Of a DNA stretch of 57,223 nt, positions 2,343 through 13,402 are shown piece after piece. The position numbers were made by a program, and so were the translations under genes. The first letter of the stretch is position 1, and each line of letters starts with the position of its first letter. The notes under the pieces were generated by a model. That model saw only the letters and a list, made by a program, of their open reading frames with translations. It did no database searches and was not told where the DNA came from. Source of the DNA: a candidate division WOR-1 bacterium RIFCSPLOWO2_02_FULL_46_20 (GTDB lineage: Bacteria; Margulisbacteria; WOR-1; O2-12-FULL-45-9); assembly GCA_001771365.1 (NCBI GenBank), contig METP01000048.1, forward strand, positions 1 to 57,223, read 5' to 3'.

Positions 2343-2738
2343 ATGCAAGAGTGCCACGGCAAAGTTAAGATAGATTTTTCGGGACTGAAGAAGATCTCCC
2401 TGGTCGGCAATCCCAACGTTGGCAAGAGCGTGATCTTCTCTCATCTAACAGACATTTACGTCACCGTTTCCAATTACCCAGGAACGACTGTTGAGGTTTC
2501 GCGGGGCGCCGGCACGATCGACCGCCAGAAGTTCGAAATCATCGACACGCCGGGCATGAACAATCTAATCCCGTCGTCCGAGGACGAAAAGGTGACAGTC
2601 GCGTACATTTTAACCCATAACCATCCGCGGCTGCGCAAGCTGATGTCGTTCGGCATCGCGCCGGGAGTAAAAATCCGCCAAACTGGCCGCATATCCCGGC
2701 GTGTCCCGGCCGCAAATTCCTGCTTGACAAAAGTTTAA
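2343..2738 (+). pseudogene. Truncated FeoB G-domain joined to a FeoA-like remnant
   Basis: The 131-residue frame starts behind AAGGAG. It carries the FeoB GTPase signatures in order: G1 GNPNVGKS (22-29), G2 YPGTTVE (45-51), G3 DTPG (68-71) and the switch-II-like PSSEDEKVT. At about residue 94 it changes abruptly to RLRKLMSFGIAPGVKIRQTG, which is the signature of FeoA, and then ends. The G4/G5 motifs and the whole FeoB permease are missing. Normal FeoB has about 600-750 residues, and FeoA normally stands before FeoB or at its N-terminus. The order seen here suggests an internal deletion that fused two feo pieces. It could be a dead remnant or a small free GTPase. Its last codons overlap the next promoter. 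Confidence 0.6.
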
Positions 2739-2766
2739 CATACTTTATAATATGACTAAATTAGTC
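2724..2766 (+). promoter_or_regulatory. Consensus promoter with IscR-type dyad for the heme-copper reductase genes
   Basis: TTGACA (2724-2729), a 16-bp spacer and TATAAT (2746-2751) form a perfect core promoter inside the 3' end of the FeoB remnant. Directly downstream, GACTAA-A-TTAGTC (2754-2766) is a perfect 6-1-6 dyad. It fits the core GACTRWWWYAGTC of the IscR type-1 consensus exactly, and about 18 of 25 positions over the full motif. An Rrf2-family Fe-S regulator is therefore the likely controller. Candidates in the window are the proteins at 4986 and 17110. Confidence 0.7.
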
Positions 2767-2790
2767 GTAAATAGCAGTGAAGGGGGAATT

Positions 2791-3348
2791 ATGAATGTTT
2801 TGTCGCTGGCCCTGTATCTTAGGATTTTTTACGCCGCGCTAGTTTTGATCGTTGTCTCCCTGATGGTTTTTTATGTCAGGGGCCTGACCACAAAAGGCGA
2901 AACATCGGGACGGCTCAAAGCCGTATTTTACGGTTGGCTCGGTTTTCTTGTCGCCGTCGCCATTCTTTTTCATCTTCTAACCGCCTGGCAGATACCCTGG
3001 GTGCGCTGGGAGATCAAACGGGCTGAAATCGTCCCCAACCGGGAATTCGCGCTCAACGCCAAACAACACCGGTTTACTTTGCCGGCCGGCGGCTTGAAAG
3101 TTCGTCAGGGTGAGGTGGTCAAATTTAAGGTCACTTCCTCTGACCTGACCTATGGCTTTGGCGTTTTTCATGAGAGCGGGGCGATGGAATTCCAGATGCA
3201 GGTCCTGCCCGGGCATTCTAACGAGATCATCTGGATTTTTAAGGATCCCGGTAAATATTCAATTCGCTCGACCGAATATGCCGGACCGGAAACCGAGCAA
3301 ATGTACCTGAAAGATTCCATAACCGTTCTGTCGGGGGAGGAAAAATAA
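2791..3348 (+). CDS. Heme-copper reductase subunit II, without CuA ligands
   Basis: The 185-residue protein has two N-terminal membrane helices (about residues 8-28 and 43-65) and a periplasmic cupredoxin-like domain. In cytochrome oxidase subunit II the CuA loop reads C-x-E-Y-C-x3-H-x2-M. Here it reads STEYAGPETEQM (160-171): both Cys and the His are gone and only the Met remains. The subunit therefore cannot hold CuA, as in quinol oxidases and several NO-reductase families. The ATG at 2752 lies inside the -10 element, so I place the start at 2791 behind GAAGGGGG. The stop codon directly abuts subunit I, so the two form one operon. Confidence 0.75.
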   Translation: MNVLSLALYLRIFYAALVLIVVSLMVFYVRGLTTKGETSGRLKAVFYGWLGFLVAVAILFHLLTAWQIPWVRWEIKRAEIVPNREFALNAKQHRFTLPAGGLKVRQGEVVKFKVTSSDLTYGFGVFHESGAMEFQMQVLPGHSNEIIWIFKDPGKYSIRSTEYAGPETEQMYLKDSITVLSGEEK

Positions 3349-4932
3349 ATGATTTCACTTAAAGAATTAAATCCTTTGCAGAAAGTCACCCTCCGTTTTG
3401 TGGTTATCGCGCTGTTATTCTACGGCCTGACTGTGATCGAAGGGATGATGATGCGCGCCGTTCAGGTCAATATTCCCTTGCTGGAAGCTGAACATTTTTT
3501 TGCGGTCCTAAACGCCCATCCCATTGTGGGGATCTTTGGCTACAGCTTCATGCTGGTCATGGGGGCGTTTTACTTTCTGGTGCCGACGTTCACGAAAAAA
3601 GAGCTCTACAGCGTCTTCCTGGCCGAGCTCAACTGGCTGGTCATGGCAGCCGGGACGGGCATCGTTTGGCTAAGCAGTTTTATTTTCCACTACAGCGCCC
3701 TTTACACTAATTACTGGCCCCTGCCGGTCATTGGCTCGACCGGCGTAAGCCTCGGGCTTTACGCTCTCGGCATCCTTTTGATCATGATTGGTATCCTCAT
3801 CTTTTGTTTCAATCTTTTCGCGACCGTCTTTCATCGCGAGCCGGGTGACAAGCCGCTTTCGACCCTTATCATTTCCGCTTTCGGTCTGGACGGCTTCGTT
3901 AATATATTCAACCGTTTCCGTGGCCGGCCGGATAAAGTTGTTGAGCCGGATGTGCCGCTGCCGATCGTGGCCATCTTTCGCGGGACGATCGATACCGTGC
4001 TCGACGCTCTGGTCCTGGGCTCGGTCGCGATCGTTTTCCTGGTCTACGCCTTTTTTAAGCTGAAGGGCGCTACTCTCCCCACAACCTGGCTTGATCCGCT
4101 CATTTATAAGAATCTTTACTGGTGGGGGCTCGATCTGATCGCCGATGGCCTTGTTTTGATTTATGTGGCTGGCACCTGGTATCTCCTGGCCATGATCATC
4201 ACCGGCCGGCAGATCTTTATGCAGAATTTCGCGCGGGCGGCGCTTTTTGTCGAGCTGGTCGTTTCCTGGTTCGTCTGGAGCCATCATCTCCTCTCCGACC
4301 AGACCCAGCCGGTCATGATGAGGATCTTTTCCGGCGAAATGATCACCGCTTTTGAACTGGTTACCTCCGGCATCGCCGTTTTCCTGACGCTGGCTACCCT
4401 CTGGCAGGCGCGGCCGCTCAAAATGACCATGCCGTTAAAATTTTTATTGGGCGGCATCGTTGGCTTTGGCCTGGGCGTGCCGGCCGGCATTCTGCAGGCT
4501 GATCTTGGCATGAATCGTATTCTTCACAATACCCAGTGGGTGATAGGGGCGCACGCGCACATGCAGATTTTGGTCGGGCTCTCCTGCACTCTTTTTGCCG
4601 CGCTGTACGCGATCTTCCCGATGGTGACGAAGAGAGAAGTGAAGAGCGAATTCTTGTCGAATGTCCATTTCTGGTGCCAGATGGTCGGCGGCATCGGCAT
4701 GTCGGTCGCCATGGGGTTTGCCGGCTTGAATGGAATGCTCCGGCGGACGCTTTATATGGGTGACCCGACTTATCTCCAAGAGATGTACTTCGCGGCTTTC
4801 TTCGGGACTATTTTAGCCATAGGATACTTGGTGATGATGTACAATTTGATTTCCACTATCGGGATCCCATCATTGATATCTTTGTTCATCAGGCTGCCGT
4901 GGTCAAAAACGCAAAGTAATATCGCCTCGTAA
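3349..4932 (+). CDS. Heme-copper oxidoreductase subunit I, NO-reductase-like with altered CuB ligand
   Basis: A 527-residue polytopic membrane protein. Conserved ligands are visible: the low-spin heme His57 (AHPIVGIFGY), the CuB pair His312-His313 (VWSHHLL) and His402/His404 (GAHAHM) for the high- and low-spin hemes. The third CuB ligand region, HPEVY in oxygen reductases or WWxxHLWVEG in NO reductases, reads WWGLDLIADG (258-267). The His is thus replaced by Asp262, and the Tyr of the His-Tyr crosslink is absent. This points to a NO-reductase-type enzyme, probably one of the newer families with remodelled active sites (eNOR, sNOR, gNOR, nNOR), rather than an O2 reductase. The subunit II without CuA and the NsrR-like gene next door agree. 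Which family it belongs to is unresolved. Confidence 0.75.
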   Translation: MISLKELNPLQKVTLRFVVIALLFYGLTVIEGMMMRAVQVNIPLLEAEHFFAVLNAHPIVGIFGYSFMLVMGAFYFLVPTFTKKELYSVFLAELNWLVMAAGTGIVWLSSFIFHYSALYTNYWPLPVIGSTGVSLGLYALGILLIMIGILIFCFNLFATVFHREPGDKPLSTLIISAFGLDGFVNIFNRFRGRPDKVVEPDVPLPIVAIFRGTIDTVLDALVLGSVAIVFLVYAFFKLKGATLPTTWLDPLIYKNLYWWGLDLIADGLVLIYVAGTWYLLAMIITGRQIFMQNFARAALFVELVVSWFVWSHHLLSDQTQPVMMRIFSGEMITAFELVTSGIAVFLTLATLWQARPLKMTMPLKFLLGGIVGFGLGVPAGILQADLGMNRILHNTQWVIGAHAHMQILVGLSCTLFAALYAIFPMVTKREVKSEFLSNVHFWCQMVGGIGMSVAMGFAGLNGMLRRTLYMGDPTYLQEMYFAAFFGTILAIGYLVMMYNLISTIGIPSLISLFIRLPWSKTQSNIAS

Positions 4933-4939
4933 AACCCTC

Positions 4940-4982
4940 TTGACAAAATTACTTAATCTGGTATAATAAATACCAGATTAAG
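4940..4982 (+). promoter_or_regulatory. Consensus promoter with a 31-bp perfect dyad, nsrR-like gene
   Basis: TTGACA (4940-4945), 16 bp, TATAAT (4962-4967). The -10 element is covered by a perfect 13-bp inverted repeat: left arm CTTAATCTGGTAT (4952-4964), centre AATAA, right arm ATACCAGATTAAG (4970-4982). A 31-bp dyad on the -10 is the expected layout of an Rrf2-family autoregulatory operator. The predicted transcript would have only about 12 nt before the ATG at 4986. The dyad sequence is different from that at 2754, so different or additional regulators may be involved. Confidence 0.75.
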
Positions 4983-4985
4983 CTT

Positions 4986-5384
4986 ATGAAACTAACCCTA
5001 GCGGCGGAAAACTCAATTATGATCCTCTACTTCCTGACCAGGGAAGGAAAGAGATTGACGGTGGCCGAGCTGTCGCAAAAACTCGGCACCCCGGCCAACC
5101 ACATATACAAGCTGGTTCAGTCCCTGGTGCGCGGGGGATACGTGCGATCCTTTCAGGGAAAAGTAGGCGGGGTGGAGCTTGCCGCTAATCCCCATAAAGT
5201 TACGCTCAGCGAGATAATCGAACATTTGGAAGGCCCGATCAATCTCTCAAACTGCATTTTCCGCGAGAAAAATTGCATCTTTATCAAGAATTGCGTTTTG
5301 AAAGGCAAGCTGGCTGCAGCGGCGCAAAAATTGGTTGCGGTGCTGCGGCGGACCACAGTGCAGGATCTGGTTAACGAAAAATGA
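4986..5384 (+). CDS. Rrf2-family transcriptional regulator, NsrR-like
   Basis: A 132-residue winged-helix regulator. Residues 1-70 are the Rrf2 HTH (LTVAELSQKLGTPANHIYKLV, then a wing with GGVELA). Three cysteines, Cys90, Cys97 and Cys103, sit in the pattern SNC-IFREKNC-IFIKNCVLKGKL, as in NsrR, whose [4Fe-4S] cluster senses nitric oxide. The end, TTVQDLV, matches the TLADL end of the family. There is no good ribosome site and the leader is very short. It sits between the NO-reductase-like genes and Nfu/hemerythrin, which supports a NO-sensing role. The alternative is a general Fe-S-status sensor. Confidence 0.75.
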   Translation: MKLTLAAENSIMILYFLTREGKRLTVAELSQKLGTPANHIYKLVQSLVRGGYVRSFQGKVGGVELAANPHKVTLSEIIEHLEGPINLSNCIFREKNCIFIKNCVLKGKLAAAAQKLVAVLRRTTVQDLVNEK

Positions 5385-5411
5385 GATTTAAAAAACAAAG
5401 GGGTGAAGCAA

Positions 5412-5654
5412 ATGGTAGAAGAAGATATTAAAAGCAGAATTATTCAATCTCTTGAGGGGATAAGGCCGGCTTTACAGTTTGATGGCGGTGACGTAGAATT
5501 GGTGGTGGTGGATGAGGTGGAAAAATCCGTCACAGTTCGGTTGCGGGGGGCCTGTGCGTGTTGTCCGGGCGCCCAGGCCACTTTGGAATACGGAGTAGCC
5601 AGGGCGATCAGGCAAGCGGTCCCGGAGATCAAAGAAGTAAAAGCGGTTATTTAA
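5412..5654 (+). CDS. NifU-like C-terminal domain (Nfu-type) Fe-S scaffold/carrier
   Basis: An 80-residue protein that is just the Nfu domain. It shows IRPALQFDGGDVELV, the cluster-binding CACCPGAQATLE with Cys48 and Cys51 as the CxxC pair, and a C-terminal VPEIKEV segment. Nfu proteins carry [4Fe-4S] clusters to target proteins. I place the start at ATG 5412 because AAAGGGGTG lies 6 bases upstream; a GTG at 5403 falls inside that site. It follows the nsrR-like gene by 27 bases and precedes the hemerythrin gene by 30, so one transcript is likely. Repair of clusters damaged by NO is a sensible inference. Confidence 0.85.
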   Translation: MVEEDIKSRIIQSLEGIRPALQFDGGDVELVVVDEVEKSVTVRLRGACACCPGAQATLEYGVARAIRQAVPEIKEVKAVI

Positions 5655-5684: not shown

Positions 5685-6230
5685 ATGTTGCCGACAGAAA
5701 AATTGGAACAGGAACACGATGTTATTTTGAAGATGCTCAAAGTCATCCAGGCCGTATCCGGGAAAATTGAAGAAATCGATCAAAAAACCTTGAAGGATAT
5801 TATTGATTTCATCCGTACCTTTGCGGATCACTGTCACCATGCCAAAGAGGAAAAAATTCTATATGTTGAAGCGGAGAAACATGGTATCCCTAATGAGGGA
5901 GGGCCGATCGGAATGATGCTGGTCGAACATGATCAGGGGAGGGGTTATGTAAAAATGATGGATGAGGCTTTGCAGAAGGTTGGGAAAGGAGACAAAAAAG
6001 CGGCAAAACAATATAAAGAAAACGCCCTTCAATTCGTCGATCTGCTTGAACAGCACATCGGTAAGGAAAATCAGATTCTTTATCCAATGATTAATATGCA
6101 TCTCCCGGAAAAGCTGCAAAAGGTTATTTCTGATAGGTTTGAAAAGATGGAGAAAGAAGAAGTGGGGGAGGGAGTGCATCATAAGTATCACGCTTTGGTC
6201 GAGGAGATGGAGGTTAAGTTTTTGAAATAG
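5685..6230 (+). CDS. Hemerythrin-like HHE-domain protein
   Basis: A 181-residue all-helical cytoplasmic protein. Likely di-iron ligands are His11 (EQEHD), His49/His51/His52 with Glu55 (DHCHHAKEE), His82 (VEHDQGRG) and His124/Glu128 (EQHIGKEN). The pattern matches the HHE-type hemerythrins of anaerobes, which bind O2 or NO or deliver iron (compare YtfE/Ric). The start has a strong AAGAGGAG site. Its place after nsrR-like and nfu suggests NO or O2 defence. YtfE is longer with an N-terminal ScdA domain, absent here, so I do not assign that name. Confidence 0.85.
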   Translation: MLPTEKLEQEHDVILKMLKVIQAVSGKIEEIDQKTLKDIIDFIRTFADHCHHAKEEKILYVEAEKHGIPNEGGPIGMMLVEHDQGRGYVKMMDEALQKVGKGDKKAAKQYKENALQFVDLLEQHIGKENQILYPMINMHLPEKLQKVISDRFEKMEKEEVGEGVHHKYHALVEEMEVKFLK

Positions 6231-12991: not shown

Positions 12992-13402
12992 ATGAAAAAA
13001 ACTATTTGCGGGATATTTATTGCGTTGCTCATGACCGCGGCCGGCTGGGCGGTGGATGTGACCAGAGAAGTTTCAATTATTGCCAGGCAATTTAACTTTC
13101 TGCCGGGTAAAATTGAAGTTGTCAAAGGGGTCCCCGTGAGGCTTTACCTGACAAGCTTGGATGTTACCCATGGCCTCTATATCGATAAGTTTAAGATCAA
13201 CCAGAAAATGGAAAAGGGTAAACTAACAGTTGTGGATTTTATCCCCGACGAAGCCGGGGAATATGAATTTAAATGTTCAAATTTCTGCGGGCTCGGGCAT
13301 GGCGGTATGAAGGGAGAACTGGTGGTGATTGAGCCGATGTCAGCAATGCCTAAAATGCCGGGGATGGAGGAAATGCAGCACAATATGCCAATGCATCATT
13401 GA
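12992..13402 (+). CDS. Secreted cupredoxin with a complete CuA site
   Basis: 136 residues, signal peptide to about GWAVD, one cupredoxin domain. The dinuclear CuA ligands are all present: His60 (DVTHGL), then Cys95, Cys99, His103 and Met106 in CSNFCGLGHGGM. The C-terminal 20 residues are rich in Met and His (MPKMPGMEEMQHNMPMHH), like copper-storage or chaperone tails. Such free CuA domains resemble the soluble part of cytochrome oxidase subunit II or nitrous-oxide reductase. No oxidase with a docking role is adjacent, and the subunit II at 2791 has lost its own CuA. Electron carrier or copper buffer are the two readings. Confidence 0.85.
   Translation: MKKTICGIFIALLMTAAGWAVDVTREVSIIARQFNFLPGKIEVVKGVPVRLYLTSLDVTHGLYIDKFKINQKMEKGKLTVVDFIPDEAGEYEFKCSNFCGLGHGGMKGELVVIEPMSAMPKMPGMEEMQHNMPMHH

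Follow-up and report, generated by a model that had tools for sequence, protein, structure and literature searches.

A probable gNOR-type nitric oxide reductase with aspartate at a CuB histidine position in a Saganbacteria (WOR-1) genome

The window, meaning the whole stretch of 57,223 nucleotides analysed here (contig METP01000048.1 of the candidate division WOR-1 bacterium RIFCSPLOWO2_02_FULL_46_20), carries two adjoining genes for the subunits of a heme-copper (HCO) enzyme, followed by genes for a regulator, a scaffold protein and a hemerythrin-domain protein (Table 1). The start of the subunit II gene was corrected to 2791, following GGGGGA; the ATG at 2752 chosen by the ORF caller falls inside a palindrome. 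The subunit I gene has a G+C content of 52.7%, compared with 45.6% for the window, and may have been acquired horizontally. A short ORF at 2343-2738 joins the N-terminus of a FeoB GTPase to a FeoA-like piece and resembles a remnant or a fusion.

Table 1. Coordinates of the genes, codons and regulatory sites described in the text (window numbering)
Feature	Position	Strand	Remarks
Sigma-70 promoter of the gNOR operon, TTGACA-16-TATAAT	2724..2751	+	12/12; same architecture before the gNOR operon of G056
Palindromic operator-like site ATGACTAAATTAGTCGT	2752..2768	.	Directly after the -10 box
Subunit II, NorH/CoxB-like cupredoxin with TM helices, no CuA Cys/His ligands	2791..3348	+	CoxB TIGR02866, 1.5e-7
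Subunit I, gNOR-type heme-copper NO reductase (probable)	3349..4932	+	527 aa; Pfam COX1 full match, E=2.7e-53
Asp262 codon, first CuB histidine position (ba3 His233)	4132..4134	+	From alignments
Asp266 codon, i+4	4144..4146	+	Column of the A/B-oxidase cross-linked Tyr and of cNOR Glu211 (FeB ligand)
His312-His313 codons, the two remaining second-metal histidines	4282..4287	+	From alignments
Glu336 codon	4354..4356	+	Column shared only with cNOR/qNOR (Glu280, P. aeruginosa NorB)
Promoter TTGACA-16-TATAAT and overlapping inverted repeat CTTAATCTGGTAT..ATACCAGATTAAG	4940..4984	+	Upstream of the Rrf2 gene
Rrf2-family regulator, NsrR/IscR-like	4986..5384	+	Three conserved Cys, C-x6-C-x5-C
NifU-like Fe-S scaffold protein	5403..5654	+	NifU also after gNOR in the relative G056
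Hemerythrin-domain protein, weakly like YtfE/RIC Fe-S repair proteins	5685..6230	+	69% identical copy in G056

An earlier note, made from the letters of this DNA, had listed His57, His312-His313, His402 and His404 of subunit I as retained, and all of them are indeed there, in the columns that hold the low-spin heme, CuB and heme ligands in every other HCO class. The distinctive region is TM VI, with the sequence YWWGLDLIADG. When 13 family sequences are used as a profile, the best solved-structure match is the B-family enzyme Thermus ba3 (3.5e-12), in an alignment that is gapless across TM VI and pairs FWWGLDLVADG with FWWTGHPIVYF (the ba3 motif in most of the chains shown). Because there is no gap, Asp262 corresponds to His233 and Asp266 to Tyr237 of ba3, which we take to be a CuB ligand and the cross-linked tyrosine, respectively; ba3 also differs in having CuA and in being without Glu336. 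The replacement of a CuB histidine by Asp262, as claimed in the earlier note, is thus borne out, but in sequence order the position is that of the first CuB ligand, not the third. The likeness drawn there between WWGLDLIADG and the WWxxHLWVEG of NO reductases holds for the exchange of His for Asp and fails for the spacing, the distance from WW to the ligand being one residue shorter than in cNOR. In an alignment of 37 sequences, the CuB column contains Asp only in the window family; all rows of the A, B, C, cNOR, qNOR and sNOR-like groups have His there, and cNOR and qNOR do keep three histidines, as had been stated. A histidine brought to the CuB position from elsewhere was looked for, and none of the histidines invariant across 32 family sequences (49, 57, 312, 313, 393, 402, 404 and 440 only) is a replacement entering the second-metal site. 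An AlphaFold model of subunit I, built from two sequences, reached a pLDDT of 46 and was too poor to view the site.

The His-Tyr cross-link motif is missing from both known positions, in agreement with the earlier reading: residue 266, at the A/B position, is Asp in the family, and the C-family position in TM VII (HH-6) is an invariant Ser306, with Tyr in 6 of 6 C-type rows. Asp262, Asp266, His312-313 and Glu336 are invariant in all family rows covering the site (32 rows, including the Saganbacteria copies), which excludes chance or sequencing error for the two aspartates. The window family and cNOR/qNOR are the only ones with acidic residues in columns 266 and 336; in P. aeruginosa NorB these are Glu211, bound to FeB, and Glu280, part of a proton relay (PMC10256718, PMC6713497; the role of Glu280 is described in the latter). 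The same positions separate subunit I from the other classes. A/B oxygen reductases combine the CuB His with HxxxY in TM VI, where Asp262 and Asp266 stand here, and the C family (cbb3) has the TM VII tyrosine in place of Ser306. Proteins of the cNOR/qNOR type (NorB/NorZ) share the two carboxylate columns but differ in HLWVEG, in their three histidines, in NorC or a fused cytochrome-c-like domain, and in forming a separate, long-branched clade. The TM VI residue is Asp rather than the Gln of the H...Q pattern of eNOR, a class whose reference is absent from the tree described below, or the Asn of the H...N pattern of sNOR, the sNOR-like proteins L064 and L065 reading HTLVN on a separate branch. 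These sNOR-like proteins (L014/L064 and L065) occur in two genomes, carry the motif FGHTLVN and are 75% identical to each other.

Full-length homologues of subunit I with 52-57% identity (E 1e-166 to 1e-190) were found in 26 genomes of one other phylum, by inference Campylobacterota, which we take to be recognisable from the CcoN of these genomes; a UMP kinase from the same phylum has its best match in structure 4a7w, presumably the H. pylori UMP kinase. Closer orthologues, at about 90% (89-90%) and 83% identity, belong to WOR-1/Saganbacteria, the former to WOR-1 RIFCSPHIGHO2_01_FULL_53_15, and such an HCO is present in only 3 of 74 genomes of this phylum. In a maximum-likelihood tree, the window family is a single clade with 100/100 support, distinct from the A, C, cNOR/qNOR and sNOR sequences, and so falls outside the ordinary oxygen reductases. 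Saganbacteria make up their own sub-clade, sister to Campylobacterota, and the deep join of the family with ba3, sNOR and A-type rows is poorly supported and long-branched. Named gNOR sequences are absent from the rows of the tree, as are nNOR, eNOR and bNOR; the NorB references came from plasmid records, and the pSymA and pHG1 stretches contained no NorB.

In the classification of Hemp and Gennis, gNOR has the active-site residue D and is listed for Sulfurimonas, Sulfurovum and Persephonella (PMC8756737, Table A4). Subunit I matches this description in having Asp266 at the Tyr/Glu/Gln/Asn position of TM VI, together with Asp262 at the CuB His, and in sharing a clade, with support of 100/100, with homologues from the presumed Campylobacterota, a gNOR host group. 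It is most likely a new member of this already proposed family, a label founded on the published host genera and on the recognition of the phylum rather than on a named gNOR sequence. The earlier note had left the choice between a recently described NOR family and a new branch; the former agrees with residue set and clade, and the latter is ruled out because homologues at the identity given above are spread through another phylum. The gNOR (NorGH) of Campylobacterota and Methylomirabilis would share with the window protein the aspartates at the CuB His and at i+4, Glu336 and the other histidines, a likeness read from the Campylobacterota homologues, with Methylomirabilis sequences outside the comparison. 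The sNOR-bearing genome G294 was examined for a Methylomirabilota gNOR, and none was found in it; this genome belongs to another group. A placement in nNOR or in another undescribed sister family is very improbable: the lack of nNOR, eNOR and bNOR references in the tree and the separate Saganbacteria sub-clade would allow it, but the identity level and the same residue set in proteins from the phylum of documented gNOR hosts argue for gNOR proper.

Subunit II is of the cupredoxin type rather than a cytochrome c and is encoded directly upstream of subunit I, as in the Campylobacterota homologues. Its CuA motif CSExCGxxHxxM is replaced by STEYAGPETEQM, and STEYxGP stands where CSExCG would be across the family. 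The loss of CuA is common to every alignable family subunit II (the ORF upstream in L041 was mis-framed, and L006 and L042 yielded none). This loss fits the description of gNOR, encoded by norGH, as quinone-oxidising (PMC8906906), and entry of electrons from quinol would therefore be expected. Asp266, Glu336 and the CuA-less subunit II, all overlooked in the earlier note, are as diagnostic as Asp262.

The palindrome that follows the -10 box of the operon, for which 0.06 matches are expected per shuffled window, recurs with the same promoter before four other units: the gNOR operon and a DUF2249 unit of G056, nifU of G057, and a YgbA_NO gene on contig C64 of the window's own genome (G000). With the reversed pattern as control, G000, G056 and G057 gave no match, and G049 and G047 a single match each; the pattern match in G047 lacks an adjacent promoter. 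A different palindrome precedes the Rrf2 gene beside gNOR. The YgbA_NO gene of C64 adjoins another Rrf2 gene, whose product (L108:1843-2193) is the strongest candidate for the protein that reads the operator of gNOR, ATGACTAAATTAGTCAT. The C64 cluster (L108, 57-2193) also encodes a sulfite/nitrite-reductase-like half domain and TusA. In G056, the gene order is gNOR, DUF2249, NifU and hemerythrin. In E. coli, ygbA and ytfE are members of the NsrR regulon, which responds to NO (PMC5320621). The context of shared palindrome, NifU, hemerythrin and DUF2249 points to NO detoxification, and the promoter palindrome shared with YgbA_NO and Fe-S repair genes is independent regulatory evidence for a gNOR acting on NO.

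Among the Campylobacterota homologues, the gene lies beside heme d1 synthesis genes (NirJ, SUMT, CysG, Crp/Fnr) in L089, adjoins NarK in L088 and an Rrf2 gene in L087, and has as neighbour in L090 an MFS protein by Pfam that resembles the NarK of L088. Unlike these loci, Saganbacteria operons carry NifU, hemerythrin and either Rrf2 or DUF2249, and not a protein of about 200 aa. Of 27 Campylobacterota loci, 23 have the latter after gNOR (L020-L045; for example L088:9571-10173 and L089:7317-7907); it matches nothing in Pfam, in the window or in the tested Saganbacteria contigs, and it is possibly an assembly factor or a third subunit.

The gene pair at 2791-4932 thus very probably encodes a two-subunit, quinol-dependent NO reductase of the gNOR family that serves NO removal. 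What the sequence itself displays is the family membership, the ligand set, the loss of CuA, the shared operator and the gene context; NO as the substrate, quinol as the donor, iron as the second metal and the identity of the repressor are deduced. In subunit I, His57 and His404 would bind a low-spin heme and His402 a high-spin heme, with the second metal held by His312, His313 and Asp262; Asp266 may be a further ligand or a proton relay, and Glu336 would lie in the second shell. Electrons would enter from membrane quinol, subunit II keeping the cupredoxin fold without CuA, and two NO molecules bound at the pair of heme and second metal would be converted to N2O and water. Iron seems a likelier second metal than copper, since the site is rich in carboxylates (up to two of them, beside two histidines), and the Asp/Asp/Glu site gives a clear prediction about metal identity. 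A heme/non-heme-iron reductase with a 2-His-2-carboxylate site, an origin in the oxidase lineage separate from that of cNOR/qNOR and a reaction other than simple NO reduction is quite unlikely. The chance that the same fold performs neither NO nor O2 reduction (acting, for example, on another N-oxide or in NO dismutation) is slighter still: the biochemically characterised NORs listed are only cNOR, qNOR, bNOR and eNOR, with no gNOR (PMC11388526), and the proposed NO dismutases suggest that HCO sites can be re-used (PMC6094997), but gene context points to NO removal and NOD is a relative of qNOR, in a different clade from the window family. For the gNOR enzyme, the operon would be switched on together with Fe-S repair genes from the shared-palindrome promoter, the palindrome presumably being read by an Fe-S Rrf2 (NsrR-like) repressor.

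The role of this gNOR in the Saganbacterium would be NO removal rather than O2 respiration or denitrification. The host genome is 1.37 Mb in size and 86% complete; the window protein is the only HCO found in it, and no molybdopterin oxidoreductase (nitrate reductase included), no Cu-oxidase_3 domain (as in NirK) and no cytochrome bd was found, so neither denitrification nor O2 respiration is obvious in the host. Given the absent nitrate reductase and Cu-oxidase_3, the NO would come from outside or from a source not recognised in the genome. Matheus Carnevali et al. (2019) described the HCO of Saganbacteria as a putative O2 reductase of a novel type, near an M. oxyfera HCO of unknown type (PMC6349859). 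Their 'novel type' quinol oxidase HO1A/LO2A comes from the same candidate phylum and is the same type of protein, and we infer that the RIFCSPHIGHO2_01_FULL_53_15 ortholog is HO1A or LO2A; the difference lies in the reading, O2 reductase there and gNOR here. M. oxyfera has a gNOR, DAMO_1118-1119 (PMC6094997), which may be that neighbour. A new type of quinol-dependent O2 reductase would explain how O2 is reduced in a genome where nothing else found would do so, but it would have lost one CuB His and the cross-link tyrosine at either known position, and would have acidic residues at 266 and 336 as in NORs, NO-stress genes nearby and homologues in a nir/NarK context; the 2019 paper itself calls O2 use uncertain (PMC6349859). 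This reading is improbable and is rejected on ligands and gene context. The published putative novel O2 reductase is thus reread as a likely NO-detoxifying gNOR in a lineage sibling to Cyanobacteria, and one argument for O2 respiration by these Saganbacteria is removed.

As to the supply of hemes and electrons, one gene of the genome codes for a MenA-like protein (scoring above the cut-off of TIGR00751), and its neighbours for a polyprenyl synthase and a FixC-like oxidoreductase. Neither of the genome's two UbiA-family genes was recognised as a heme O synthase, which weakly suggests, in a genome that is incomplete, that only b-type hemes are used. At 12992-13402, next to a metal efflux set of the CusCBA type, the window encodes a secreted, stand-alone cupredoxin whose CuA motif is complete (H...CSNFCGLGHGGM); as a candidate for the missing electron donor it was not supported, being found in several Saganbacteria without gNOR and not in the gNOR-bearing G056. 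In the second ortholog locus (L003, 1979-6028), gNOR is followed by genes for a multiheme cytochrome c, a ferredoxin, NrfD and a cytochrome b, which would provide an alternative electron route.
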